The notes under the pieces are model-generated. The model was given only the letters and a program-made list of their open reading frames with translations, ran no database searches and had not been told where the DNA came from. Positions 19,534 through 48,458 of a stretch of 64,000 nucleotides of DNA are shown here, in pieces. This DNA comes from Diprion similis (Eukaryota > Arthropoda > Insecta > Hymenoptera > Diprionidae). The stretch is from assembly GCF_021155765.1 (NCBI RefSeq), contig NC_060112.1:11036001-11100000 (forward strand), in the 5' to 3' direction. Both the position numbers and the translations under genes were made by a program. How positions within the stretch are numbered: position 1 is the stretch's first letter; each line of letters opens with the position of its first letter.

Positions 19534-19570
19534 TATAAGTCGGTGCCCGTCTCCTACCGGTCGACATTCT
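19534..19570 (+). promoter_or_regulatory. Candidate TO2 core promoter
   Basis: TATAAGT at 19534 is followed by GACATTC with its A at 19566, exactly 32 bp from the TATA T, the same spacing as in TO3-TO6. The leader would be about 156 nt. The initiator match is weaker than in TO3-TO6. Confidence 0.5.
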
Positions 19571-19721: not shown

Positions 19722-22700
19722 ATGAAGGGTGCTTTAGTTCTTTTGTGCGCGAGTTTGGTGATCTACTTCGCAGGGGTCGAGGCGATGGGCAAGTACAGAG
19801 GACTCGAATTCCTCGAGCCCTGTTCCAGGCGGAACTCGCACTTGGAAGCCTGCTTGGCTCATTCGGCCAACATCCTTACGGAACACTTCAAACGTGGTAA
19901 GTCGACCTGCAGAGAAGTTCTACCGCGGTATTCAGTATCCGAAAAAACTCTTAGGTCATTCAACCGTTGACTCTAGATTCAAAGAAGTTCTACCGCGGTA
20001 TTTAAAATTTGAAACACTTCTTTCGATGATTCGACCGTTGCTTGAAGATTCAAAGAAGTTCTACCGCGGTATTAAAAAATGGAACAATTCGTTCGATCAT
20101 TCAACCGTTGGCTGGAGGATATGCAGATGCGTCACGAGTACTACGCGGGTAATCCGGTAGTTTCTTTATCGTCGAGATTAACATGTAAACGATTAAATCT
20201 TCAACCTGAATTTGCGTTGAAGCCTCAGGCGGTATTTGAACAGCGGTTAATATTTCCGCCAGTGTGTTAATTGGGAATATCGGTAACCCGAATCGTCGCC
20301 GCAGCGACCGACGAAATAATGTCTGTACTTGTGCGCTCCGGCTCCGGACATGAGAATAAAAAACAGGTTGTAACGGTACTTATTTAATGGTCACCCACTG
20401 TCCCACATTCGAACAGGCCAAGGTACAATCACCTCTAGACGACGCTGCAGGACCGATATCTCGTCAGCTTCGCCGGTCGTACACGTTATATTGAATATAT
20501 AATAACGACGTGCAATGCAATATCCGGTGTCATGTACGTTATGTAGATAATTTCACCTCATATAGATTATTTTATCTTATAGAGATAATGTGAGTCAAGT
20601 TCATCTCGCATCTTCATCTTTTTTACGGCACAAAAGTAAAATAAACTGCTCAGTGAAACATAAGAGACGTCATTCTGGGTCAAGAATCTCGTATAATTTT
20701 GCGACAATGAATAATTCAATGAAAATATCTTTTTGAAAGAAACTCTTCGCATATTATACTAAGAAAAGAGATTGTTTGAGCTAAAAGAATGTTTTGTTGT
20801 TTGAACTCAATTTTTCTTACTCTCATGAAATATTTACTTGTTTCAAAAAATCTTCACCGTTAGGTAGATCCCGTAAAATCTTTCGTCATTTCAACAAACA
20901 TTATTCGCACTAATTTTGCATAATTTTTTTACCACTCACCGTTAAATAAAATAAAATTATACTTTGTTGAATCAACAATGCTATTTTTTCTCATCGTATT
21001 AGAAATCTCCCCTTTCCTCTTATCTTCCGCAAAGTTAATTGCATGAGATAATATCTTTCATCTGATCTAGATGAGTTTTTGCATGAATAATCTTATCGTC
21101 TCATCTATAGGTATAATTATAACAATTATATTCACCATCATGTATAATACCGATTGAGATTAATAATTGCTTCTTGATGCTCAGGACTTCCTCAACTCGG
21201 ATTCGACGAGGTTGAACCCATCATTCTCGACGAACTTCACATCGCTCTTGGCGGTGGTCCGGATGGGTACAGGGCGCAATTCAGGGACGTGGAAGCCCAG
21301 GGCGTCTCGGCGCTACGCGTAACAGGCCTCAGGGCGCGACTCACCGATGACGAAGTTCAGGTCCAGCTCGCTCTGAGCATCCCCAGGATCAGGGCCAAGG
21401 CCAATTACCGATCCAGCGGGAAGTTGATTTTGGTTCAGGCCAGCGGCGCCGGCGATTACTGGGGCGAATACGGTAAATTCCAAATTCCACTTTTCTTTTC
21501 TCGAGTAAGTCTTCGAGTTCACGCGATAACGCCGGGATTTAACGGAACGGTGAATAGAATTTGTATTAATGCAAATTCGTAACACCTAGAATCCAAATCC
21601 GATGGTTCTCTATGCCTGAGGAAGTATAAGTGCCATTTTGTAGTGACTCATTGATTGCGTTATTTTACTTTTGAAGTATATTTTTGCAATACGGTATTTT
21701 ATTTTCACAGAGAATTTTTTTTTATTGCACTAGAGAACGGGATTTCTCAATCTCATTATAGTCCGCGAGTCTATTCAATTTTGCGTCCTTGTTCTAGATA
21801 GTTTAGTTTTTCATCTCGAATTGTTTAATATGCATTATAATTGCAGTTGGAATTCACGCATTACGTGAAGATGTGCTCGGGATTATTCTCAACCAGACCT
21901 TTTGTATATGTAAAACTGAAAATACCTTAACTTCAAACTACAAAGTTGAGCAGCTATTGAATTTTCAAAGTATTCAAATTGAAAAATGAAGTACACAGAA
22001 TTCTAAGAAATTAAATATTTTCACATAATGCTCAAAAGATTTTATAAAGCAGTTCTCGGGTACTTAGTCCAAGTGAGCAATTTACATTTACTTTACCTTT
22101 TTTGGTGCTCCTGTTTATCGTATCTTTGATTGATTCGATGATTAGTGTTATGCAATTTGCGCGAAGCGATGAAAGCAGACAATCATGCCCTCCCAAAATA
22201 GTTGTTGAAAGTTTCACTGATATCCGGAAAATGTTACGATATATTTTTCTAACAAGTAATTATTCAAATGGAATGCTCTCACATACTTTTAAAAATGTTT
22301 ATCTCTTATCAGAACAAATTTTTTACAGTTAATAATGAATAGGTGTCACTCGAAAATGAGAAAAAATATTACTACTTAGAAGCAAAGTTGAAAACATTTC
22401 ATTTTTCTACTGTTTGTGCGCACACAATTACCTAAATATATATAATTTGACAGAACTGTTTGTCGACCGTATGAAATGTTGCAGAATTGCCTCTGAGAAA
22501 ATTAATCGTATCACATTATTTCACCGCTACTCCTGACCAAAGTTCGCCGTTTTTTCTCAAGTGGTACTGCAGCTGACGGTTGTAGATTTATACGATAATT
22601 TCGAAGGTAAAAGTAAAAGTCAACGTTCCTGGAACGGAAACAGTGTCCTGATTTGCAAAGTAATCGAGAGGCTCGCTAATGTCTTTCAACTTTCTCCGGG

Positions 22701-23384: not shown

Positions 23385-25734
23385 ACCCATCACTACACTT
23401 GGAAATCATACAAACATAGATATGTAGGATCGAGGCTCCTCGCTTCGAAGGACAGCCAGTTCCCCTAGACTCAGGCACAACATAAAATTGGTGGTGTCAT
23501 TTTGACAATCAGAATTCGGACGTATCTGGTATTACATTCAACGAAGAAGATTTGCCAACTCCCGTGCCTCTGTGGCTAATCGGTAAGAACCAGTTCAAGG
23601 CTGCTGTAGTTGCAGGTGTCTTTTTGAGTGTTCTTCACCTGTAAATTGAAGAAAGCCACGAAACACGTCTTTTGGCGATTAGAAAGGCGTGTGAGTATCC
23701 GATGTTCCAGGCTGCACGATCAGATAGATTCCGCCTGTGTGGCGAGTAGCGAAACCCGTTGTAAATGCACATAGCCTTGCCAAAATTTTTTATCGCAAGA
23801 ATTAGCGACCTCCTATAATCAGGGAATCAGGGCAATGTTAAATTTCTAATTCAATCCTTCTGTACTTCACCTCCGCGATTATATTATCCAGTGCAGCTAT
23901 AGTTCACCGTGTGATTTCCGTATTACTATATACTTAGATAATAGTACATTATTACTTAGTTTGACAATGCAAATTTAAGGTTTATTGTTACTTTTAAGGT
24001 TCAAGTACGTGTATTCTCATTAATTTTTTTACTCACGCGGCGAAAGTTGAACAGGTTAGCAAGAAAATTCCAAGCACGTCAGTTTTGGCATTTGATTGTC
24101 TCTCCAGTTGCTAGATAGCATTATCGAAACTCGCGAATATCGACGAGCGTAACTTCTACTCACGCATTGATCAACGCATCAAAGCATCTATAAATCTTCG
24201 TTTCATCATTAATTAAACAATCATAATCCATCATCGCACGTAATCTAATTGTTTAAGTTGATTTGTTGTTGTTGTTTTTTTTTTTTTTTATGTAGAGTTA
24301 GCGCTTGACTGCTGCCCGTTATTTGCTACATTTACTCGGTAATAATAACTGCGATTTGATATTTTCCTTTCATTATTGATAGTATGATGACTTTGTTTTG
24401 TCTGTATTTATTGAATATATTTTACAATTGTAATGAAATATATCGTATTTTATTTTTCCCAATACCTTGTGCAGCCAATTGCCATTCAAGACATGCAAAC
24501 TCGTCATACCTACGTGACATTATTTCCAATCGATTCTTGATATATTCCATCTTTTTTTTTTATGTCTCTTCGAAATTTAGTTACCTAAGGTCGATTACAC
24601 GATTAAAAACCATTTTCGTAGTTCAGTATAATATTACTGACAATTGACGAGCAATTTGAAGTAAATCTGACCAATAAATTTCACACAAAGTTGCAAGCCA
24701 TAAAATATGGAGATCAAAAACTGTGTCAGTTACTATCAAGCGAGCATTTAGTCACCGTATTATTGGCCTCAATTCAAACCTCACTTCATTGTGGAAGAGA
24801 TGAAAAAAAAATCAATAAAGATTTTGTAGTTTCATTTTAGCGTAATTTTTGACATTATCCAAATCGAAAAGCTGTAAAATCCGTCGGATTTTCTGCTTAC
24901 TGCTTTGTATAGTGATTGTACAATACTAGAGGCAAAAAATGAATTTTCAAACATCGCAAGGGAAGAATGTCACGCTACTACCCGTCACTGTAAAATCGAA
25001 ATGGCTGGATTTCTGTTGGCGTAATAATTATTAGCGCAAAGATGACATAAATTGTTGAGACTACATAGTCGATGATAGCAGGAAATCTTCGCTTATTGTC
25101 GTTCCGCGGCGTTATATCAGCGACAGCTGGTATAACAGTTGCGTAATAGGGATCACAGCGCAGGCAGCTCAAAGAGACTATTACGGCTTAAATGGCATGT
25201 TCGCAACCCTATTATAGCACCGTCATTCGGCTGCGACATTATCTCAAACGTGAAAATTGCCGGACGTAATCATGCGATGTTTAGGTCTTGTTTTTCCTTA
25301 TGTATTTACCTGCTCTTGAATAAATCAGAGCATTCGATCAGCTGGTGATGGTTTAAATTTCTCCATGGGTCCAAGAATTATGGGTGATAAGTTACAATCG
25401 AGATTACAGTTTCAGAGGGTATGATCAATTCTTATCGATATGAACGAATTGAAAATGGCGGAACCTAGATTCTTCTTCACGTAAGAGGGACGTGGAATAT
25501 CACGTTGATTATGTGTCTAAATGACAGAATTTCTGTAGTGTTTGTATCCTGAAATCAACGGTACGCCACTAATTGAATCCGGATCAATTATCCGCGGTCG
25601 CTGGAGGTGGAAGAGTCTCGATGATGGAACTGTCCAGTTACATGGTTAGTTCCATTGGCGTCGATAAATGGAGTCCTTGTCTCACGCATGTCATGAAGAA
25701 ACTGCGCGGTAGAAAATGACAGTTTGACTTAGAC
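23385..25734. other. TO2-TO3 spacer
   Basis: Holds the TO2 3' region and TO3 upstream sequence. AATAAA near 24674 and 24814 could end a long TO2 3' UTR. No other gene seen. Confidence 0.5.
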
Positions 25735-25796
25735 GCGGCGAGAGGAGTGAGGGTTCTATAAGGTCTTTGGTCAGGCGAAATTTTCTTCATTTGCAA
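25735..25796 (+). promoter_or_regulatory. TO3 core promoter (shared TO3/4/5 module)
   Basis: TCTATAAGGTCTT with TATA T at 25757, then TCATTTGC with its A at 25789 (32 bp), giving a predicted 214-nt leader. The block from the TATA element to TCATTTGC is nearly the same in TO4 and TO5, while the sequence around it has diverged. Confidence 0.8.
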
Positions 25797-26002
25797 CCAG
25801 ACCAGTCCCTTGGAACACATCTTCGAGTAGGAGAAAGTAGCCAATAAAAAAAGAAGAAGAAGAACCATACCATTCGAAACCATTGTGGTTTTCGGTGGTT
25901 AAATTTGGTTCAACCGAGATTTCATCTAAACGAGATTCCTTCGCTCTCGTTGCTGATCAGTTATTGATCCAATAAAGTTCTTCACTTCGTCGGCTATTGA
26001 AA

Positions 26003-27225
26003 ATGGTACCCCTAATGATAGCCGTATTGTTAGTGATGGTGGCACTCATCTCAGCTCGTGAAGTCCGTAAGTACTATGTTTTAAGAAAATACGTTAATCA
26101 ATTAATTTCAATTTTTTATGATTGGTGTTTTTCACTTGTGCATAAAGTCGAATCTATACAATCGCACTGACAATACTTTTCAGTGTAACGAATTCCCTTT
26201 TACATTACTATGAATACTATAGTAACAAGAGCCTCGCAACCATTTTAAACAATTTCAGCAAGCTAATTGAAAATATATTACGTGTTTCAAATATTGCTAT
26301 GAATAAGACCCAGATAAATTCATCCAAACTGACGTCCTCGTAAAACCTAGCCCGATCAAATATACGCGAATCGTAAAGATATTTGACACAAATTTGAGTA
26401 CTGTGCTTAAAATTAGTAAATTAAAAATCTGTCTACCCGCAGCTGACTTTCTCAAGGTGTGCAAGCGGCAGGATCCAGACTTGCCAAATTGCGTATCCGA
26501 AAGCATAGATCACCTTCGGCCACTTCTTGTGGACGGAGTTGCCGAATACGGAATACCTTCTTTGGAACCCTTGTTGCTGCATGAAATAGTCGTTTCCCAA
26601 ACAAGTGGGCTGAGAATTGCGGGGAAAAACATCAAAGTACACGGCTGCAGTAACTTCGCCGTAACCCATTTGAGGTAAGTCTTATCTACATTTTACCCTC
26701 CGTGCAAAATGCGGAGAAATATTCGGTCAAGTGTGGATTCGCGATCAATGCAAGGTACCAGAAATACGGTTTCACTGTTTCAGCATCGAACTCTCCACGA
26801 TAGACGTCGAGGTGACGATTGAGTTGCCGAACTTGTGGATCGACGGAACCTATTCCGTGGAGGGTAAATTGTTGCTGTTGCCTGTGGTGGGGTCGGGACC
26901 ATTGGAACTTAATCTCACCACGTGTAAGGGTGAAGTGAAAATGCGGGGAAACGTGTTCAAGGATGATAACGGCGTGGAGCATCTGAGCTGCGCCGAAATG
27001 GACTTGAAGATTTCTGTCGGCACTGGCGTCGTGCGTCTTGATAATCTTCTGGGAAAGGAGGATGCGATCGGTGTCCTCGTAAATTCCGCTATCAATAAAC
27101 ACTTCGACCTTTTCTTGAAAGAAATCCAGCCCTTGCTGGAAGAAGCTTTGTCGCAAGCTTTCAAGGATATCGCTAATAAAATCGTCGAGCCCTTCGATTA
27201 CTCACAGCTTTTGCTGAATGATTAG
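26003..27225 (+). CDS. TO3: takeout/JHBP-like secreted protein, 3 exons, 245 aa
   Basis: Exons are 26003-26066, 26443-26674 and 26784-27225, with phases 1 and 2. Signal peptide MVPLMIAVLLVMVALISA is followed by the cysteine pair C28/C38 in the family motif CKRxDPxxPxC. The middle exon has IPSLEPLLL, the conserved strand and turn found in takeout proteins. The last exon carries IDGTYSVEGKLLLLP, GSGP, a NLLG turn, and the C-terminal helix ending FDYSQLLLND. Three further cysteines (C90, C146, C168) have equivalents in TO4; only C146 has one in TO5. It is the first of three head-to-tail genes with the same exon sizes and the same core promoter, so it is a recent tandem duplicate of TO4 and TO5. 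Its introns are very short (376 and 109 nt). Function is inferred from the family only: secreted carrier of a hydrophobic ligand. Confidence 0.95.
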
Positions 27226-27403
27226 ATCCGCGAGAAAAGTTGATAACACACGAAATTACGAAACGTGCTAAACTGAACTCATTGCTATAGATAACAAACA
27301 ACTTATTTGTACAAATCGAAGTCGTATGCTCGAATAGGTGTGAAAGTATACTCATGTGACCACATACGTTTGTATTAATTGAAACTTGTACGATTACAAG
27401 TAT

Positions 27404-27446
27404 AATAAATGTTTCAGGTCAACAAGCATATCATGTAAACAATAAA
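27404..27446 (+). terminator. TO3 polyadenylation signals
   Basis: AATAAA at 27404-27409 and again at 27441-27446, about 180-220 nt after the stop. Confidence 0.65.
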
Positions 27447-29111
27447 TCATGTAGAACTCGTTTATCACAGAAAAGCTTATGTAGTCGTATAATATTCTGA
27501 ATTTAAATTACCTTCCATCGCTCTTTTCTGTAATTCCAAACATTCTCCATATTCCAGTGGTTTGCAGTCGTTGAATCTCTAAAAGAGACGTAATATTGTC
27601 TCTATTTTGTTATCATTTCTAGTCAAAGATGGTTATTCCAAAGTTTCAAGCCTCAAATAGTAAACATCTTATACTGTTACGCAACATGGGGATTGCGTTA
27701 GGTAATGAAAACAGCTGCTTACAGTTCTTCGAATTACATGTTTGGACTGAGAAGTTCTCTTAGACATGAAAATTGTCCGGTAGAAGCGTCAACGAAACAC
27801 ACAATCTCGAACTGCAGGCGTATCATGCCCTTGTTGGTTTTAAACTGCGTCATCAGATGTAAGGAAATCAAAGTCAGTGAATCAAGTATACAAGCCAGGC
27901 CTTCAGTTTTTGTACACGTGTCATAATTTCAGTTGCACCTCTTCACTTATGGGCCATGAAACTTGTCAGAATTTTTTGAGGTAGTTGCAAAAATTCTGTA
28001 GAATGGAATTGCTTACAACTATAGTTGAGCAGGTATGAAACCCGATCTTCTGAAATTGAGGCTTGTGACATATTTTCCCTATGGCAATCGCTAAAAATAT
28101 GCTAACACAATCGAGGTACTTTTGAATACGAGTATCCTGCGACCTATTTCGTGCGATACAAAATTTTTGCAGCATCTTTTGTGGGTATATTATACCTGTT
28201 TCACATGGTGCGTTGGAATTCTTCGATCTAATCGTAAGCTAAAAGATATGCGTTGTTTTTTAACACGATTCAAGATGTGTGAGACATAAAAGTCCAGATA
28301 ATAATGGCAAACAAAACAGAATAAGCAAGAGGTTCAAACTTTGTGATTGAAATCAATTGGATTGAATTTATCTGGAAAAACATTTCACGAATGTGAAAGC
28401 AATCGGAGTCTCTACTATTATTAAGTCTATCGTTTTAAACAATTTTTTCAATGGATGTTCCTGAAACCCGGAATCCTTGCCTCCTAATTACTCTTCTCCT
28501 CGCTTATCGCACCCCTTCGAAGAGTATAATAAATAGTATCAGGATGCTAAAACACTGGAGGAATAGTTATCTTTTTACAACAATCACTACAAATTTCTGC
28601 TATTCATATATTTGACTAGTAAATATTGTTCAAAAGCGAGGAAACTTTTGTTCAAATATCTATCGATGAACCGTTACGGAAAAAACACTTCTGGTGCAAA
28701 AATAAATTTGCCACGTAGTACTTTGTCAACCAGCAGTATGTATAATTTTATTTACGATCCATATTTATAAAAGTGGGGATCTATCAAAGGGGGCCACGAC
28801 CGATGATTCGATGATCTCACTTCAAGAAATCATTGACTTGTCAGTACCTACGTATTATTGAGTTGATTTTGCCGATTCATGAAATCATTAGGTAATTCAA
28901 TCATTTTTGTCTCAGTTATGATGACAATTAAATAAAATTAGCGATGGTCGAGATGAAACGCAACGATCTCTGGGTTGAAAGAAAAGTGTTTTCAAGGCAT
29001 GTCGTATTGGAGAAAATTATGGGTGGTGGTCAACGTCATCTGGACAAATTCGTTATTCGCATATGATATATATCGATAACCTTCGAGACTTATGCTTGTA
29101 CGTAGTAGGAA
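27447..29111. other. TO3-TO4 spacer
   Basis: No gene recognised; one E-box at 27915. Confidence 0.55.
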
Positions 29112-29192
29112 AACAATTGTTATTACCAAGATGTGGTGGGAGGTAGGGAGCCCTATAAGGTCTTCGGGCAGGCGTCATACTCTTCATTTGCG
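29112..29192 (+). promoter_or_regulatory. TO4 core promoter (shared TO3/4/5 module)
   Basis: CCTATAAGGTCTTCGGGCAGG with TATA T at 29154 and TCATTTGC with A at 29186 (32 bp). Upstream it shares ACAATTGT and GTGGTGGGAGG with TO5. The predicted leader is 160 nt. Confidence 0.82.
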
Positions 29193-29345
29193 ACGAGGCT
29201 ATTCCGAACTATCGTGGCTATCGTCAGTACGCATTGATCAAGAATCGCTTCCTTCACAAAACTTCGGTTCGATTTTACCATTCTACCGGCCATTGATACC
29301 ATTGGAGAAAAAATTTTGTTCCTTCGTTCTGCTTAATCGTTGAAC

Positions 29346-31387
29346 ATGACACTTCTGACGACAGTTGGAGTGCTTATGGTGCTGGCAACAGTATCTTCGG
29401 CTGCCACTATTCGTAAGTGACTTCATACACAAGGTTCTTAATTTTCGAAAATTCATTTTTTTTTTGGGTACCTATATTTTTTTTAAGATCTAGTATAAGT
29501 AAAAGTAACTTGTATCCATTTGACTTGATTATGCACTGTTGGAACGATATATATAAATTTGACTGAATGACAAAAAGATTCTGTTTCAACCCGTCTGAAG
29601 TAATAACGTTGATGAGCTACTGTTGGTGTTTACACAGCGAAATTCATCACCACCTGTAACCGGAAGGACCCTGACATGCCGAATTGTGTAATCGGAATGA
29701 TAAGCCGCCTTCGGCCGCTTTTGGCAACAGGAATTCCGGAGTTTCGGATCCCCGCTCTAGAACCATTGCACTTGAGGGAGCTGGTAGCTGTCGAAGGAAC
29801 GGGAATCAAAATTTCTGCCAAAGAAATTGACACCTATGGCTGCAGCGATTTCGAAATCAAAAGACTAAAGTAAGCAAGAACAGTTCATCAGGTGTTACCC
29901 AATAACAACATGCATGTAAATTAATCAACATTTTTTAACTATACATGACAAATTTTGTCAATTTGGCAAAACAATAAGGCGTTCAAGTCAGATAGTAGAT
30001 ATTGGTTTGGGCATTAGCTTCCAAGAGAGCAAGAATAAAAATGGTTACATGATGTTTTCGATCGTGATTTTGTCTGCGGTTGCATATATTTGTGTACGCG
30101 ATATTTCCTCGCGAGACATTCTTGGAATGTTTATAACAGACAATTGTACCGGCATTCGACCCTCGAGTCAATCGCAAGGGGTAATTGTTCGCTAAAGCTT
30201 CTACGATAACGGGAATTATGATAGCAATGGTATACTGCATGAAGTCAGGAATCAGTCTGATACCACAGGCATAGGATAAAAGTAGTTCCTAGAATCTGGT
30301 AATTAGTGTAACGTTAACAGCGTAATCATACACCGATGAGTAGTGTAGGAAGTATAGCGTGGTCGCGGCGATCATCACGATTCGTATAATTTTCATAATG
30401 GCGCGTGACAGTGAAATGCAATTCACCAATTGCAGTATTTAGGATAGCAGAGATTATCACTGAAGCGGTATGTACGGTTAATAAAAAAACAATCTTTCGA
30501 AATTCATGTTGCTCGTATATAAAACTCTTTCATGCCATTTGAAATCGGAGGATTGTAGCTTTTGCGAAGACTAGAGTAGCCTTCACTGCAGAACTTCGAG
30601 ATATAAAATGGATCTAATTGAGTATATGCATAACTTCACATGTTGCAATGTGACTTGAAGGAAATATTTCAACGTGACTTTGACCGAGGGTTCAACCACG
30701 CTTGCAATTAAGTCTGCTGTTTATTCATCGCAGTATCTTCTATAGTGTTTCGGACCCGTGAAGTTACTTGCATTTCTGGAGTCTCAACGTTTTTTGTTCA
30801 CCCTTTGGTATAGCCACTTGGGAAATTCTGCGCTCAAGGTTTGCCAAGCAGACCGAATGGCTTAAGTCTTGCCGTAGCCTTCATCCACTAAATCCCTTAT
30901 TCAAATTCAAGTTTGCATTAATTTCAGACTCGACATGGACAATTTGTACGCTGAAGCAGACCTCGACCTTCCACATCTGTTCATCGATGGTCTGTACTCT
31001 GTCGAGGGTAGGGTGTTGACGCTGCCCGTCACTGCGAGGGGCACGCTGAGGGGCAACTTCACTAGATGTAAAGGGTACCTCAAAATGCGGGGAGAGAGAG
31101 TGAAAGACGAAATGGGCGAGGACCATTTGCGCTGCACGTATTTCGACGTAAAGCTTTCCGTGGGCAACGGACATCTCCGTCTAGAAAATCTATTCGGGAC
31201 CGAGCAGTTGCTTGGCGACCTGGTCAATCAAGTGATAAACAATAATTTAGACACTATAATTAACGAACTGAAACCAGCGATAGAAAAAACTTTGTCCTCA
31301 GCTTTCAAAAGAACGGCGAACAATATCGTTGAACCTTTCACCTACCAGCAATTATTTCCTGACGGTGAAACTGATACGTCGGGATAG
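29346..31387 (+). CDS. TO4: takeout/JHBP-like secreted protein, 3 exons, 252 aa
   Basis: Exons are 29346-29412, 29638-29869 and 30928-31387, with phases 1 and 2. The signal peptide is MTLLTTVGVLMVLATVSSA. The cysteine pair is C29/C39, followed by IPALEPLHL, a strongly TO5-like EGTGIKISA stretch, LFIDGLYSVEGRVLTLP, and HLRLENLFG. The C-terminal helix ends in FTYQQLFPD and then adds seven residues (GETDTSG) that TO3 and TO5 lack. Extra cysteines C91, C147 and C169 match TO3 position for position. Exon 2 is exactly the length of that in TO3 and TO5 (232 nt). The 1.06-kb second intron contains no coding sequence that I recognise. Secreted ligand carrier by family; ligand unknown. Confidence 0.95.
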
Positions 31388-31772
31388 TTTACACGACTTG
31401 AAATTCCAGGATAAGTCTCATTGCCTTTGGGATAGATTGAAAAACTTAGACGTAAGATCTAAATATACAGAAAAATATTTTTAGATTGGGTGTACGGAAG
31501 AAGTACACGATAAATAATTTTTTCCATTTTTTTCATTATCGATCATTTTGTAAGATGGGAGAAAGGGAGCTCCGTTGATTCCGTGATATCGATTTTTGAT
31601 TATATACAGTACCTGTAGAATATAAGATATTCAGAAATAATTGTCATATTTTCGGAGATTTAACTATTTAATACACAACATTTATATTGTACTTCTCAAA
31701 GAATTGATTTTTATTATCATTTATTTTAAAATAAGTTCTAGATAAATATCATAATGTATCATCGAATGTACA

Positions 31773-31778
31773 AATAAA
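31773..31778 (+). terminator. TO4 polyadenylation signal
   Basis: AATAAA about 390 nt after the stop; closer variants are weaker. Confidence 0.5.
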
Positions 31779-34069
31779 TAATAACAGTCATGGCCTTTAA
31801 TACCTCTTCATTTTTCTCGATCGTAGTATTTAAAAGCAAAGGTTCAACGCACAAGATCGTTAAATTGCTAAAAGAACAATGTAATCCAATTTGTCAGTGT
31901 GTTGTGAACGAAATACTTATGTTTCATCGATTTTGAAGAAGTCTCTTACACGAATTGAACCCTTCAAAATTAAAAGAAGCCGCAGCAGAGCCCAATCTAG
32001 TAGAACCTCTTTTTCTTCACTTAGGGAACATTCCTCAAAACTGAACGTATAAAAAAAATCATTTCAACTTGCTGTTAGTGCCTCTCCAAAAACCACGTAA
32101 AAATCTGAGTCTAAAATTTTAGGGAATTCATTAAATTGACGGAAAGTTAATGGAGAATAAATTGATGGGAACACCTGTGGAATTTCGTCTTTTTCATTGA
32201 CATTCGATTTCCTCGAAATGTTTAGCAATCCTCCAATTATAACATAATACGACGGGAAGCTTTTCGAAGACGTTAAAAATGCTAAGCCAGCAATCAAGGA
32301 AGTCAATGAAGTCTTCCTCGTTCGAATATGGGTCTAAGTTATGTTGCTCATTCGAACAACGTGCGGAGTTTTTATAAGTTTTATATCAATGCAATGATAA
32401 TTATTCTGTTCGTAGAATCGCGAGAAACGCGTCTTTTGCGTTGCGACATGTAAACGTAATATGTGCTTAAGTTATGCAGGTTATAGAAAAATTAATGGAG
32501 GAATCATGAATTGTGTAGTAGAATTTCAATTTTATGGAACAAGATTAAAATCACGAAACACGTTTATCAATTATAATTTTATTCGTATAATTTGTAAAAT
32601 TTGATTGAATCAAATAATTAATTAACAGGGTGACTTGAAATCGTCATTTTTTCCCCTCCTGGGTTCGAAAAAATTTCACTCTAGTTAAATAAAATTATTA
32701 TTTTATGTTTCTAATACGTTGAATTTTCGTAATGAATCGTCTGTTAATTCACTAGTCAATTGAATAAACATTGACAGTGATGTAGACTCAAAAAGAAATT
32801 CTTCCGAGTTTTTTTTTTTTGAAACAAAAGAATTGTATTTAAATATGAAGCTATTGAATAATTTACTTCATTCGGATGAGAGGATTTTATTTAATTCCAT
32901 GAACATTTATCTCGACCGATTAAAGTTTTATTTCGAACAAGCAACTTAGGTAAAAAATTTACAACAAAAATAAGTTGTGACGAGATGTAAAAAGTTTTGC
33001 GGAAGATTTTTGGTAAAATTTTACCAAATTTTTCTTATTTTACCCACCACTCTAAATGAAAAATTTTCCCGGATATGAAAAGTAACAGTGAAACGATCAT
33101 GCACGTCAGAAGATGTTTGTACTTTGTACAAGCGATTCTCCTCAACAGAAATAAACAAATATTCAACCTGCATCCTTAGTCATGGTTTTGGGCAGCGTTT
33201 TGAACTAAACCAATAATACTTGATGGATTTACGAATGACCGGGGCTGGTTTATCATATATACAACGTACGATTGTTATGCAATAGGAATCACGTCGAAGA
33301 ACTTGGGGAAATCATTACGACAGCTACAATGACAGGGTTAGACCAGGAAATTATGTCAGACGCGGAAATTGCCTGCTCGGTAATTTCAAATAGCGGACAC
33401 GTACTAGACACGATATCACCTTGGCCTTAGGAGGAAAACTTGTTATACTTGGAAAATTGCGTCACTCGTATGTGCAGATGAATTTTAAAACCTAGGTGTG
33501 TCGAAATTCTTCCCAAACTGAAGAATTGTGTATATCGATGACCTGGTCTTCGTAATTATGGTTCGTTTTTTTTATTTTTTTTATTTCATACTTTCCTACA
33601 GATTGTTCGTCGATGTTCGTTCAATAGGTTTTATGTTACAGTAAAGTTTTTTTAATTTAAACTTGGTAGTTTTCTAAAAATCGGAATTTCACGGGGCCCC
33701 GTTTTTGACTATTCAAAAATAGAAATTCATTTTTTATGCGTGATTTGAATATATCTCCGATTTTGATGGATTTTCTGCACTCCCAAGGTACTTCTCTTCA
33801 GCTTGACGGCTAGCTTGTGAGTTTCGTAACCACGGTTTTCATTCACGAATCCAGAAACTCAGAAACTCATTGAAGAAAATTAAGCTGCATACTAAAGGAG
33901 TAGAGCTGTTGGTTATTGTGCGTCATGGATGTAATTGATTGACCGTCAATTTGTGAAGGTAAGTATTCATGATTCGAGTTCACAATTCCGATTAAGGGGG
34001 AAAGCCACTGTGATGGCCGAAGAAATAATCAACTTTTAAGAATTGCTTTCACAGGGATAACTAATTAGT

Positions 34070-34623
34070 AAAGGGATCGGATTGTTGGTATTGTATTAAC
34101 TGTATATTAAACTTGTTTTTTATAAATTTTTATTAAAAAATATTTCAAATCAACCAAAATATGGGCCTTGACATAATGACTATTAAAAAGAATTTTCCTC
34201 CATCGTGGCATTGATATCTCAAAATAAAAAACAAATTTTTATGAATATCTATACAAATGTAGCTAACTTTTTGAGTGGTTGTTTTTTTCTGATTATCCAC
34301 AGAATGGCCACGGATAAAAAATTTTCTTATTTTTCGGGCCATTTATTTAATTCAAGTCATCGCCACTTCGTGAACAATAAAAAATAAAAAACGGCCACGT
34401 ACAACAATAGCTACATTTGTACAGATATTGATGAAATGTTGTTTTTTATTTTTAAATAACTTTTCACCTATATGTATATCAATGCCACGATAGAGGGAAA
34501 GTTTTTTTATTAGTCATTAATTCAAGGCCCACATTTTTGTTGATTTTGAATATTTCCTACCAGAAATTTCTATAAAACAAGTTTAACATACACTTAATGA
34601 AATAACAACAATTCGATCCCTTT
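34070..34623. mobile_element. Foldback (MITE-like) element with arms over 200 bp
   Basis: The left part, beginning AAAGGGATCGGATTGTTG, is repeated in inverse orientation to the end ACAATTCGATCCCTTT. Shared blocks in order include TTAAACTTGTTTT, GGGCCTTGA, ATCGTGGCATTGATAT and ACAAATGTAGCTA. The arms meet around 34310-34390. No transposase is encoded, so it is non-autonomous. A target-site duplication is not clear. It lies between TO4 and TO5. Confidence 0.85.
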
Positions 34624-34802
34624 GTAACACCAAAATGTCCCTTGCATTTGATAAACGTGAGCTGTGAAAATGAAATTTGTCTGGAATTTAAATTGCTGAT
34701 GCTGATGACTTTCAATTTGAGGTGATCAAAGTACAACTGCGTTAAAATTCTACAGGAATATATGTTATCTCAAGAAAACTTGGGTATCAAAAATATAAAT
34801 CG

Positions 34803-34865
34803 GTCAGGATTCGAACTCGTGAGATTTTCATTCCGAACGTATGTCAACAACTCCATTCGCTAGTT
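34803..34865 (-). repeat. tRNA-like pseudo-element (possible tRNA-derived SINE head)
   Basis: The minus strand carries an A-box-like TAGCGAATGG (34862-34853) and a B-box GTTCGAATCC (34816-34807) at tRNA-like spacing. The 7-nt acceptor arms do not pair, so it is not a functional tRNA. Confidence 0.45.
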
Positions 34866-36997
34866 CCGAGACTGCTTGGGGTCATAAAAGTTTGCAAATA
34901 ACTCGCACATCGGTTGCAAAGTCACGTTTCGAAGAGTAATCTTCCTAGGTTGGCATATGGTGCATAGTTCAACTAAACTCGTTCTTGCAAACTGTATAGC
35001 AACTTGATTTATCGTCTGTTCTATCGTTGATGATATCAGTGTCTGCGTCAAGTTCAAGTCAAAAGTGAAAAGGGCGCACATTCATAGACTTTTGTTTTCT
35101 TGATCTCTTCTAGGTGATTCATATCTCCATGCCGTATATTATACTGTATTCGTATTTCGTCTAAATACTAGATTCCCCAAGTTTTCTAAAGAATGAAAAA
35201 ACACGAATAAGCTAATTTGAAAAAATATTTTATCAAATTTTATTCAACTACATACCTGTCATATGTTCGTGATTGAACGTCTCGTTTGTATCTGATCTGA
35301 CGTTGATGATCAGAGTAAAGAATTTTCAAAGAACAAAGTAGTTAAATTGTGTTACTTGACGTGCAATTGAAACGTACAATTCCACTCATTATCAAGGATG
35401 ATAATTGACGGTTGTGGAGGACTATTGCTGTAATTCAGAAGCGAAGGTTGACAAAGTATCACGTATGTGTTGAATGTTTTTCTCGTGCACCCTAATAACA
35501 CGCACATTATGTACGCAGAAAAATTCGGTGTGGATCTTTGGTCAATTTTTATAGTTGCATTTTTACGCAAACATACTGCAACATCAGAGGTTTTTCTGAA
35601 GATTAAGAAATTGAGTGAAATTTAATGAGCAGTACATAGATTTTTGATAATGAAAATTAATGTCAAAAAAGTGTAATAATATCCGTACAGCGTTCTTCTT
35701 TTGCATTCTTAAATATAATTTCCTTGGCGATGACGAATAATATTTTTTTTATCCATAAAGGTATTTATTTACATTTTGATTTGATTTTTTTAATCGTTTT
35801 TATCAATTTAGAAAAAATTTTTAGCCGTGAAAAACACTGTTATAAAAAGAAGTAGAGCTGGCTCTGTACGTGACAGAGTTTAAGTCTTCAGTTAGGTAAT
35901 GAATTACCGAAACACAGTCTGCATTGATTAATTTTTTTGTGTGCTATACAAGTAAAAAAAATTCAGCGCGCATGATTTTCACTTGGCTATTCACCACCTC
36001 AAGATAAATCTCTCTGGCGTTATTCGGCTGTTAGGATTAGGTGTGCCTTGACTTCGTACAATTTGACACGCGATTGAAACACAATCACTGTTCCGAATGA
36101 GCGAATTCAAGACGTGGCCCCCGTAACATTGAGGGCCCCCGACGAAAATGTGAATCGCGTGAATTTCCAGATCATGTAAATAACCCAATTACTTAAGGTC
36201 GCCGAGAGAAACGAAACCAAGAAAAACCAGGAAGGCCTAGTCAATCGGGCATTCGCTTTTCCATTTTCTGTTCAAACCCTTGCCGACAGCCACAATTCTG
36301 CCAAATATTGTGACTGGAACTCCGAATTTAAAGGCGTGAAACAAATTCAGCATTGGTTAGAAAAAAGGATCTTTTAAGTTTTATGGAGGATTTTTTATTT
36401 ATATTATTATTAAGTTAATATTGTACTTTTGTTATTTATCTTGTTTTAATTCACAACTTACTTCTTTTTATCCGAATATCATTAATTACAAGAGTTTATT
36501 CTATGCTGATAAACCTGATTGTAATTGATTTTGTTTTAATTAAAAAATACTTGTGTAACGCACGCAGTCACACATTGGAAATGTAAACCGAGAATCCATC
36601 AATCGAATATCTAGATAATTAATTTAAAACAAGAAGTCAATTACCCTCAAAGTCATTTGAAACTGATCTTTTTTTCAATCCCAATTTAAAGTTATAATTC
36701 CCGACTTGTAATCAATTAATCGTCTAATTACAAGTCTGCCAAACACCGATCAAAAATAGATGTCAAATACTGTAATCTTCAGGATTTCCTGCCTTCAGAT
36801 ACCACAAAAATAAAGATAAAAATGTAAAAAACAGCCAGTCAGGCACTGCTGATAGTCACCCAGGGAATATCGTCATCCTTCAGGGATGCTTCAGTCTCCC
36901 GATTTTCACGTGGACTGGAATCGTCTCGTTTCATCGCCACTGTCCGGAGGCTTCGGTTTCTCGCGTGCATCATTGACCGGTGCTTGGGGCAGGAGAC

Positions 36998-37075
36998 AAT
37001 TGTACTATTTACAGGTGGTGGGAGGCAGGGAGGTCCTATAAGGTCTTCGAGCAGGCTTCAAGTTTCTCATTTGCA
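36998..37075 (+). promoter_or_regulatory. TO5 core promoter (shared TO3/4/5 module)
   Basis: CCTATAAGGTCTTCGAGCAGG with TATA T at 37037 and TCATTTGC with A at 37069 (32 bp). ACAATTGT and GGTGGGAGGCAGGGAG lie directly upstream as in TO4. The predicted leader is 178 nt. A CACGTG E-box is at 36907-36912. Confidence 0.82.
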
Positions 37076-37246
37076 ATAAGACTATAATGCTCTAAACTAT
37101 TGTGACGATCGTTGGTCAGCGTTGTTAGTCCCAAAAGTCTGCCTAAGGAGGTTGCATTGTTTCGACTTCTGGTTTTTTTCCAATTTTGTTAAATTGCTGA
37201 CTCTTTCGAACAAGTTTGACTTCATTTTTTCACTCGAACATCGACG

Positions 37247-40200
37247 ATGATACCTTTGACGATCGCTTTGCTTCTCGCAGTGGTGACGAGAGCTTCTGCT
37301 GTTGATCTTCGTAAGTAAACGCTCACCTGATACTTTCAGTCTCGGGTATATTTTCGCCTTGTTTTTCAAGCCGCGAATTACGTGCAGCCTACGTGGAAAA
37401 GTACCGCTGCTGGTCTCTTTGAGTTTGTGAAATCCCTTGGCTAAATTTAGACAGCGATAGCTGGGTAAACTGTGAATTTGAAAGTTTGAAAGTGTGTTGT
37501 GACTATTCACAAATTGATAAATTGAACTTTCGGCGATTTGTTTTATCGAAATAATAACAACAAATGACTCTCCGTTGCAATTTTTTCCTCCAAGTCTCTT
37601 TGCGTTATAATTCTGCAAAATGTAGTTGTGAGAATTTCAGAATTCGTCACTTTTATCCTCAGAGTTTGAATTGCTTCAAGGAAACTGGATATTTGATTTC
37701 TCTGTATTCTTCGACGCAGTTAGTTTATTCGTTTCGAATTTTTAACACTTCTGCGTATTATATTCCTATATATTTTTATACTAACCACGCAGATTTTATT
37801 CTTCTTTTACGTTGTCAATTTACTTTTTCCGTCTCTCACACTGGCGCTCCCTTGCGACAATGCAAAACAGTAATTCAGAAAAAAAATCAGGTCGACTTTC
37901 TCACAGAAAATAATTTTTCACGAGGTTAGAATTAAACTTAGAATTACGAAAGGATATATACGAAACGACAGGTTAAGTGGTTTCGAAAAAAATATCAAAG
38001 AAATTGTGTAGGAAAAAAAAAAAAAAAAAAAAAAAATAGAGACATTGATAAGAAAACTATATAGAAAACATGGCATGAATTCAACTCAACGACTAATTAT
38101 TTTTTCTAAGAAATATAAAATTTCATGGCCCTGGCAAAAGACATGGAGAAACTTGACTATGCAGTTATTATTAGCACATCATAACGCGTGACAACGAAAC
38201 TTGGACGTGAAACTACTTGCAATGAAGGCTCATTGACGGGCAGTCCTGATGAGAAATCATGCACACTGTAGTCAGCGTTGAGAAAAAATATGAAACTTCT
38301 TTCACCATTTAACCAGGATTTTTACCAGTATGGATATGGAGGATGAATGGGCTCCGTACCGTCCGAATCGAAAGTTAGGAAGAGAGAAAAAATTGCAAAA
38401 AAATTATCCTGAAATGTTATATGAAATAAGTTTAATAATTTTTAACGTTTCAATTATAAAACCTTTTTCCATATTCTCGAAATATTACCCTGCGTTATTA
38501 AAATTTGATCAGAATCATGTCTTTCACACGATAAGGATGTTATTTCGCGCGTGTCGACGTCATCATTAGCGCAAGTAAGACTGCTCGAAATATTTTCAAC
38601 GGTTTTTCCCTTTCCCTAAGCTTTGATCGGGACGGTACAACCCATTAATTCTCAACACACACGACACACTGACAAACTTTCTGCACTCCTGTTTCAGCGG
38701 AGTACATTCATGTATGCAAACGAAGGGATCCGAACGTGGAGAACTGCATATCCCAAAGCGTGGAGTACCTTCGGCCATATTTGGTGAAGGGAGTTCCAGA
38801 GCACAACATCCCATCTCTGGAGCCTCTGCTCCTGAAGGAATTGGTCGCCGCTGAAGGAACGGGAATCAGAATCTCCGCGCGGGATGTCCACGCTTACGGA
38901 GCCAGCGATTTCACAGTCAGAAGGCTCAAGTAAGAATCAGTGTGTTGTTCTAATTTTATGATGATTTTCAGAAATTTCATTTATGCAATTCAAGTTTGTT
39001 GCCTATCGACGACGACGCTGCAGATCCGACGCAAACTGTCCGATTCATGATTGTACTATTTTTGTTCGGATCAGTAGTAAATCGTCGCAAATTATAGCCA
39101 CTAGCCATCGTCCAGAGCACACAATCGCAGTGATCGTTGTTTGCATTCATCTTCAAGGTCGAAATAAATTCGCGAAGATTACGGAAACGAATAACGAATG
39201 ATAAATTGACAATTGGACGCGTAATTTAAGGACGCTCGGGCTTACAGTGTGCTCGCAAAAATGTCCTGATAACAGGAAACGATGACTATTCTATACTTTC
39301 ATCGAGGCAGCCAACCTAAATCTAGTCATACATTTTATAGATATTAACAAGAACAAAGATTCTATAATGTTGAATGCAATAAATTACCGTCATGGCAATT
39401 TAGTGCATTACATCAATAGCTACCATTTTGAGGAAATGAAGTCTCAATGAATCGTCCAAATCACAACAGAACAATTTTTCTGATAAAAGATCATTCAACG
39501 TTTTAGAGCCTCGAATCATTTCATCTGAAACAAATTTTTTGTTCCTAAAGAGACAGAACCCGAAATGTGTCTGAGAGAACCAGTAGAAAATTTACTCAAT
39601 AACAATGAAATGACCTATGAAATATGAAAACGAGATGAAAGATGCGTACTTTTGTATCCGATGCGATTAGTGTCGAGTCTTGAAAATCTGTTCTTTTTCA
39701 ATTTGAAATATTGCTATGATAAATGTTCTGATATACTAAGGTGTTACCACCGTTGTCGTCAGTATTTGACAATGATTACAAGTGTAAGCTTACCTGAAAG
39801 ACGCACAATATCGTTGCAAATATATAACATTGTGCAGCGTGGTATCCATGCGGTCATCAATGATTCACACCCATAGGTAGTCAAGAGGTTTGCATGCTGA
39901 ATACTCGTATGTGGCAGTATACGAGGGGTAAACATCTCGTTTATATTCTTGCCGTAGTATCACGCGCGTGCCGTGTCCCTGACACAACATTAAAATGCTC
40001 AGAAAACAATCGAACATCGCGTATAAGACGTGCAAAAGAGAAATAATGAAAATGATGGTACAAGACAATGGCATATTAGCATCGAGCCATTAAGCAATAA
40101 GACCTCGAACCCCGCAGCATGCGCGCCGATTAAAAATTAAATAAATTTATTCGTTCGTTTTTGTCCCGCTTAAATATGTTATTTTCAAATGGAACATTTA

Positions 40201-41573
40201 TCTCTAATGGATGTACCATGGAAATCCATGACGGATATGAAATACTTCTGTCAGACATTCATTTCAACCGTAATAGATATTCACACATGCCTCTATTAGA
40301 GATTTCATGGATTTACGTTCCGGACGACATCCGCAGTTGACCAAAGTTCCGAATTTACTGAGGGTTTGTATAATTTGGAGCTGTCCTTTATGGTGTGAGA
40401 GGAGAGCGACCATTCGCCACCTGGTGGTTCTCTATGGTACTTCCACTTATGTGCATGAATATTCACAGACCAATGGATATAGATCCAATGGATATCCATC
40501 GCCGGTTTTAATGTAACCGTAGATATTGTGGATTTCTGTAAACGTCTATTAGAGATCCACTTAGAATTGGCTGGACTGGACGGCCTGAATAAAAGGAACC
40601 GTTGAAAAATTTTCAAAAATGCTATTCGTGCATTCAATGATAGTGAAAACTAATGAAATCTAAGATATCAACAATTAGAGAAATTGTACGGTAATTGGAA
40701 TGTTCAATATGATTAAACTCTTGTGTTTTTGATCTGATTCTAATAATTTGAGCTCATTTTGCTCACTGACCAGATGCACAAAAATAATTTGAAAACCATT
40801 CAAATCTTAAATTGAATCTAATTCTTGACGATTTAGTTGTTTTTCTGTATCATATTTATACAAATTTATATTTACCCACTCCAAAGTTAATTACTTATGT
40901 GAAATTGTTTCAAGTGATCTCTGGAGATCTTTGCAGTGAGCAAAATGAGTCCAAAGACGTAAGAATCGAAGTAACAACATGAGTTTAATAATTTCCACCG
41001 TCTTACCTGCATGTAAAACCTTTTTCAAATCGTTGATGCATTATCTTGTCTTATTTTAATGTGCTCAGATTCATTTTTATTATTCGTCGTAATAAATTCG
41101 TCAACAGTTTGAAGGTATAATTTTTTTGCAGAATCGACCTGGACAAGCTGCGGTTTGAGGTGGACATCAATCTGCCGCACTTGTACATCGACGGGATGTA
41201 CGAAATCGCAGGAAGAGTGTTGCTGCTTCCGATATCGGGATCGGGGCCGATGCGGGGTAACTTCACCGAGTGTACCGGAGCAGTTCGTATGCAGGGGGAG
41301 CTCCGGAAGGACAAAGATGGCGAGGATCACCTGCACTATTCCGATTTCCGGATGAAGATCTCGATCGGCAAGGGGAACCTCCGCCTGGAGAACCTTTTCG
41401 GAGGGGAGCGAGCCCTCGGCGACGTCGTAAACGCGGCGATAAACAACAACTTCGACGCCTTCATCAGGGAACTGAAGCCTCTGATAGAGAAGGCTTTGTC
41501 GGATGCCTTCCTGGAAATCGCGAACAACATCGTCGATCCTTTTACGTACAAACAATTGTTCCCGGTTGATTAA
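37247..41573 (+). CDS. TO5: takeout/JHBP-like secreted protein, 3 exons, 245 aa
   Basis: Exons are 37247-37310, 38698-38929 and 41132-41573, with phases 1 and 2 as in TO3 and TO4. Signal peptide MIPLTIALLLAVVTRASA precedes the cysteine pair C28/C38 (CKRRDPNVENC). Family signatures follow: IPSLEPLLL, YIDGMYEIAGRVLLLP, GSGPMRGNF, LRLENLFGG, and the end FTYKQLFPVD, which is the textbook takeout C-terminus. Of the three extra cysteines shared by TO3 and TO4, two are replaced (A90, Y168) and only C146 remains. The introns have grown to 1.4 and 2.2 kb compared with TO3. The first exon is placed by its promoter module and by a signal peptide in the right phase. It is convergent with TO6, whose stop lies 1.1 kb downstream. 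Confidence 0.94.
38013..38036. repeat. Poly-A tract in TO5 intron 1
   Basis: Run of A residues; could be a retroposon tail but no recognisable element precedes it. Confidence 0.85.
40416..40427 (-). promoter_or_regulatory. CTCF-like motif in TO5 intron 2
   Basis: The minus strand reads CCACCAGGTGGC, which fits the CTCF core CCACNAGGTGGC. It is a motif match only; short motifs occur by chance. Confidence 0.3.
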
Positions 41574-48423: not shown

Positions 48424-48458
48424 ACTGACGGCTGCCAATTGGGGATGGCTCATTTATA
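48424..48458 (-). promoter_or_regulatory. TO6 core promoter
   Basis: On the minus strand TATAAATG starts at 48458 and the arthropod initiator TCAGTC has its A at 48426, exactly 32 bp downstream. The predicted leader to the ATG at 48296 is 130 nt. The sequence is otherwise unrelated to the TO3/4/5 module. Confidence 0.75.

Follow-up and report, generated by a model that had tools for sequence, protein, structure and literature searches.

Three adjacent takeout genes of the sawfly Diprion similis carry the same TATA-like and initiator-like words upstream of their coding regions, which raises the question whether these words belong to a core promoter maintained by selection, reflect a recent duplication, or mark a regulon that extends beyond the three genes. 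The locus was analyzed in a window of 64,000 nucleotides (bases 11,036,001-11,100,000 of contig C8; the genome comprises 269 Mb in 60 contigs). In tblastn searches of the window and its flanks with three predicted proteins, a takeout/JHBP cluster of about 12 genes, most of them counted from partial tblastn matches, was detected on both strands, beginning roughly 8.5 kb ahead of the window and ending at about 84.3 kb in its coordinates. The genes TO3, TO4 and TO5 are adjacent, all located on the plus strand, and each is predicted to contain three coding exons with GT/AG bounds (Table 1). Their predicted products score 210.9, 224.2 and 256 bits against the Pfam family PF06585 (JHBP/takeout), for which the gathering score is 29.2; TO3 also matches AAA_9 in Pfam, but under the cut-off of that family, and this match was ignored. 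Takeout-like genes are also listed in a paper on mating in a pine sawfly (PMC8396567).

Several other features were observed in the same region. A further takeout gene at 73009-74022 (window coordinates) resembles TO3-TO5 in having a single long exon as its last match. Between TO4 and TO5 (34070-34623), there is a long imperfect inverted repeat, with arms of 148 nt (84% complementary) and inner arms of 82 nt (77%), that resembles elements of the foldback or MITE type. A 63-nt unit with a GAAGTTCTACCGCGGTATT core is present in three direct copies, with a spacing of 70-71 bp, downstream of the first coding exon predicted for TO2 (19910-20113).

The original prediction placed a TATA word and an initiator word upstream of TO3, TO4 and TO5, with 32 bp from the TATA T to the initiator A, and every coordinate proved to be right. 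The window contains exactly three copies of the TATA word CTATAAGGTCTT, at 25756, 29153 and 37036, and each copy is followed by TCATTTGC, a word that is found at 4 other sites in the window, on both strands; the 32-bp distance holds in all three genes. Two additional words that had been reported just upstream in TO4 and TO5 are indeed present there, namely ACAATTGT, a palindrome with 5 occurrences in the window and hence not rare, and GTGGTGGGAGG, which is found at 29133 in TO4 and 37015 in TO5 and nowhere else in the window. However, the G-rich block is not restricted to this pair, because a drifted version is aligned in TO3. Furthermore, directly 3' of TATAAG, there is a run, GTCTTNGNNCAGGC, with 11 of its 14 bases invariant, that was absent from the original prediction, so conservation extends beyond the two words originally named.

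Table 1. Predicted coding regions and promoter features of TO3, TO4 and TO5 (window coordinates).
Feature	Position	Strand	Remarks
TO3 proximal promoter, conserved block	25709..25802	+	about -80 to +13; local alignments with TO4 (-80..+19) and TO5 (to +13)
TO3 drifted G-rich block GCGGCGAGAGGAGTGAGGG	25735..25753	+	MAFFT alignment
TO3 TATA half CTATAAGGTCTTTGGTCAGGC	25756..25776	+	
TO3 initiator TCATTTGC	25787..25794	+	predicted start A 25789
TO3 predicted coding region	26003..27225 (26003-26066, 26443-26674, 26784-27225)	+	245 aa, JHBP/takeout
TO4 proximal promoter, conserved block	29107..29236	+	about -79 to +50, against TO5
TO4 ACAATTGT	29113..29120	+	
TO4 G-rich block GTGGTGGGAGGTAGGGAG	29133..29150	+	
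TO4 TATA half CTATAAGGTCTTCGGGCAGGC	29153..29173	+	
TO4 initiator TCATTTGC	29184..29191	+	predicted start A 29186
TO4 predicted coding region	29346..31387 (29346-29412, 29638-29869, 30928-31387)	+	252 aa, JHBP/takeout
TO5 proximal promoter, conserved block	36991..37124	+	about -78 to +55, against TO4
TO5 ACAATTGT	36996..37003	+	
TO5 G-rich block GTGGTGGGAGGCAGGGAG	37015..37032	+	
TO5 TATA half CTATAAGGTCTTCGAGCAGGC	37036..37056	+	
TO5 initiator TCATTTGC	37067..37074	+	predicted start A 37069
TO5 predicted coding region	37247..41573 (37247-37310, 38698-38929, 41132-41573)	+	245 aa, JHBP/takeout

We consider it very likely, from the comparison of three paralogues of one genome, that these words are parts of a TATA/initiator proximal promoter that was inherited from one ancestral takeout gene and has been kept by purifying selection. 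An old tandem duplication of a single takeout gene would have given rise to TO3, TO4 and TO5, each retaining the proximal promoter, and purifying selection would have held the protein contacts while the surrounding DNA turned over.

The extent of the similarity is limited. Between -34 and +9, the three pairs of genes are identical at 35/44, 31/44 and 34/44 positions (70-80%). In the ungapped alignment from the initiator A, the columns that are identical in all three genes include 7/7 in C+TATAAG, 11/14 in GTCTTNGNNCAGGC, 2/10 at -12 to -3, 8/8 in TCATTTGC and 5/15 at +6 to +20; farther out, they include 6/27 at -60 to -34, 10/90 at +61 to +150 and 59/901 in the upstream flank. The best local alignment of TO3 and TO4 extends from about -80 to +19 (score 75 vs a maximum of 61 among 100 random pairs, the number used for each gene pair, and 56 elsewhere in the regions), and that of TO4 and TO5 begins at -79 and ends at +50 on the TO4 side and +55 on the TO5 side (score 112 vs a random maximum of 74, and 37 elsewhere). 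The alignment of TO3 and TO5 contains many gaps and extends from -173 in TO3 and -163 in TO5 to +13 (score 72 vs a random maximum of 55, and 44 elsewhere). In two of the three pairs, the similarity decays within about 80 bp on the upstream side and within 15-50 bp on the downstream side, whereas the upstream edge of the TO3-TO5 pair is not sharp because the gapped alignment continues to -173. When the three gene regions were compared by blastn at E 0.01, 9 matches were obtained, of which 3 are in the promoters (one per pair, 74-79%; in particular, 25756-25808 of TO3 matches TO4 at 79%) and 6 in coding exons (65-73%); no match was detected in introns or distal DNA.

The main rival explanation is gene conversion that re-copied a short promoter tract, in which case the similarity of the tract would be younger than the genes; we regard this as quite improbable. 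Gene conversion would account for a short block that begins near -80 in both the TO3-TO4 and the TO4-TO5 comparisons, and TO3, TO4 and TO5 are neighbors on one strand. It would also account for an apparent conflict, namely, that the TO5-anchored protein tree, weak evidence given that the other cluster genes were entered as partial matches, joins TO3 and TO4 with a support of 0.978, yet the longest promoter similarity is shared by TO4 and TO5, which counts against simple inheritance from an ancestral gene. However, TO4-TO5 is also the pair with the highest plain amino-acid identity (135/245). A recent conversion should result in even, high identity, whereas the block consists of invariant islands beside diverged stretches (at -12 to -3 and at +6 to +20), and blastn shows no converted tract elsewhere, the introns giving no match and none of the exon matches exceeding 73%.

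It is decidedly unlikely that the block has been kept for a role other than initiation, for example, as an enhancer or as a 5'-end RNA element. The run that follows the TATA box is presumably longer than the standard elements, and the TO4-TO5 similarity continues to about +50, both of which could indicate such a role, but the location 160-214 bp before the predicted ATG, the strand, the TATA-initiator order and the 32-bp spacing all fit a promoter. The same spacing is found in TO6, on the minus strand, where a consensus TATA box, TATAAATG, at 48458 is 32 bp apart from the A (48426) of a TCAGTC initiator, and in TO2, where TATAAG at 19534 lies 32 bp from the A (19566) of a weak initiator, CATTC, that was found by eye; the promoters of TO6 and TO2 are otherwise unrelated in sequence to the TO3-TO5 module. 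A regular expression for TATA-initiator combinations identified one pair less than 300 bp from the start codon in each of TO3, TO4, TO5 and TO6 and nothing for TO2, TO7 and K; for A, B, TO1, TO8 and L, the pairs precede the first detected exon by 1.0-2.5 kb. The 32-bp spacing was considered as a sign of joint control of TO3-TO5 and rejected because it recurs in TO6 and, less clearly, in TO2. Not being private to the three genes, the spacing supports both the predicted starts and the interpretation as a promoter but is silent on joint control.

Recent duplication, under which the similarity would simply be young, is a very improbable explanation even though the genes are tandem copies, given that four-fold sites are identical in only 16/50, 26/59 and 17/58 cases in the three pairs (29-44%), that dS between the genes is 1.4-3.3 (NG86), and that the gene regions lack intron and distal matches. 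The amino-acid sequences are identical at 114/245, 122/245 and 135/245 positions (47-55%). In partial TO5-anchored alignments, the mutual identity of TO3-TO5 is 48-57%, compared to at most 40% identity with the other nine cluster genes. In all probability, TO3, TO4 and TO5 are old tandem duplicates of one takeout gene. The promoter block is more conserved than the four-fold sites in all three pairs (Fisher P of 3e-6, 0.007 and 1e-6, TO3-TO5 being the weakest at 0.007), these probabilities serving as guides because the 44-bp span, the 14-bp run and the other spans were picked after viewing the alignment. Because the promoters exceed the coding exons in the blastn comparison and the four-fold sites in identity, the promoter is kept better than coding DNA, and recent duplication is rejected. 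The proposal that the core promoter is under constraint is well supported by a block that surpasses four-fold coding sites and sits in diverged DNA; the pattern that had been named as the signature of recent duplication, even similarity through all flanks, is not what is seen, the similarity fading around the block.

Several tests address the specificity of the module. A matrix derived from two of the genes ranked the third as the best other site in all three leave-one-out combinations (about 528,000 positions in 264 kb), with scores of 38.8-49.4 vs 11.0-13.2 for the next best; weaker sites in the 264 kb, such as that near -99624, were judged to be chance matches, and no copy of the module was detected by the matrix scan near the takeout gene at 73009-74022. 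The best ungapped 43-mer identities are 35, 32 and 34, vs maxima of 29, 30 and 29 among 200 first-order Markov random pairs per gene pair. Across the genome, where the counts from pattern searches are lower bounds for repeats, the exact TATA-half pattern has three hits (reversed control, 0), and a pattern extended to the initiator, allowing at most 3 mismatches among 35 places, likewise has three hits in 269 Mb (reversed control, 0). When 2 mismatches are allowed, the TATA half yields 12 hits beyond the three exact ones, compared to 36 for the reversed control; these were rejected as copies of the module, TCATT being correctly placed in none of the 12. The 12-mer alone with 2 mismatches is not significant in the window (4 found vs 5.35 expected), so the evidence draws its strength from the exact matches together with the remainder of the block. 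That generic TATA and initiator words merely resemble one another by chance, which would fit the unremarkable frequency of the 12-mer, has a negligible probability in view of the combined pattern with its empty reversed control and the leave-one-out ranks.

The same searches bear on the extent of the regulon. The original prediction suggested that a genome search could reveal other members, and, with 3 or fewer mismatches allowed, no additional copy was found genome-wide. These results do not support a wider regulon, as it is undetectable in the genome by the TO3-TO5 motif, takeout promoters beyond the cluster having been reached through DNA patterns only, and the module seems to have been handed down in the three genes as a family heirloom. 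No title among the matches listed in one open literature library refers to a shared takeout promoter module.

If, as we favor, the promoter was inherited from the ancestral takeout gene and kept by selection, TFIID would make contact both with TATAAG, which lies 32 bp upstream of the start, and with the initiator, TCATTT, fixing the start at 25789, 29186 and 37069, which are reasonable predictions that fit the TATA-initiator geometry. In all three genes, three of the nine positions of CTATAAGGT disagree with STATAWAWR, and the TATA contact may therefore be weak. The run GTCTTNGNNCAGGC and the upstream G-rich block are probably further protein contacts that may compensate for a TATA box off the full consensus; an added contact over GTCTTNGNNCAGGC would be the most economical reason for its preservation. 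The downstream TFIIB recognition element (BREd) is located directly 3' of TATA and has the consensus RTDKKKK. The run occupies what we take to be the BREd place but is longer and only partly matches this presumed consensus. The BREd is named in PMC8461331. A more specific and rather improbable possibility is that GTCTTNGNNCAGGC is an undescribed core element specific to this gene family that is bound by TFIIB or a dedicated factor and aids the sub-optimal TATA box, whereby the three old takeout copies would answer the same signal. Any shared expression of TO3-TO5, and likewise the joint regulation that was originally proposed, is hypothetical. In practical terms, the module provides three testable transcription starts, and TO3-TO5 represent a small natural experiment on which promoter bases survive once silent coding sites are nearly saturated, the claim being limited in that the motif marks no wider regulon detectable in the genome.

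With respect to known systems, the TO3-TO5 proteins match the takeout/haemolymph juvenile hormone binding protein family (PF06585) over nearly the whole length and above the curated cut-off, and no unusual features were seen in them. The module itself looks like an ordinary conserved promoter and is most similar to the focused TATA/initiator Pol II promoters of the Drosophila TATA class. According to PMC6483594, TBP binds the TATA box of flies some 30 bp upstream, TCAKTY is the initiator consensus, and G at +2 is absent from most TATA promoters; strict TATA and initiator positions are described in PMC8842121, and minimal pausing of TATA effector promoters in PMC7863008. Likewise, TATAAG starts 32 bp upstream of the initiator A in all three takeout genes, with strict spacing, and TCATTT fits TCAKTY in each of them, with T rather than G at +2. 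In contrast to this class, as defined by at most one mismatch to STATAWAWR in PMC6483594, the TO3-TO5 boxes deviate at three places, and because of this the promoters are expected to work like a TATA promoter but are not filed as strict ones. The second difference is the 14-bp run after TATA (11 bases invariant), which is found only at these three genes.
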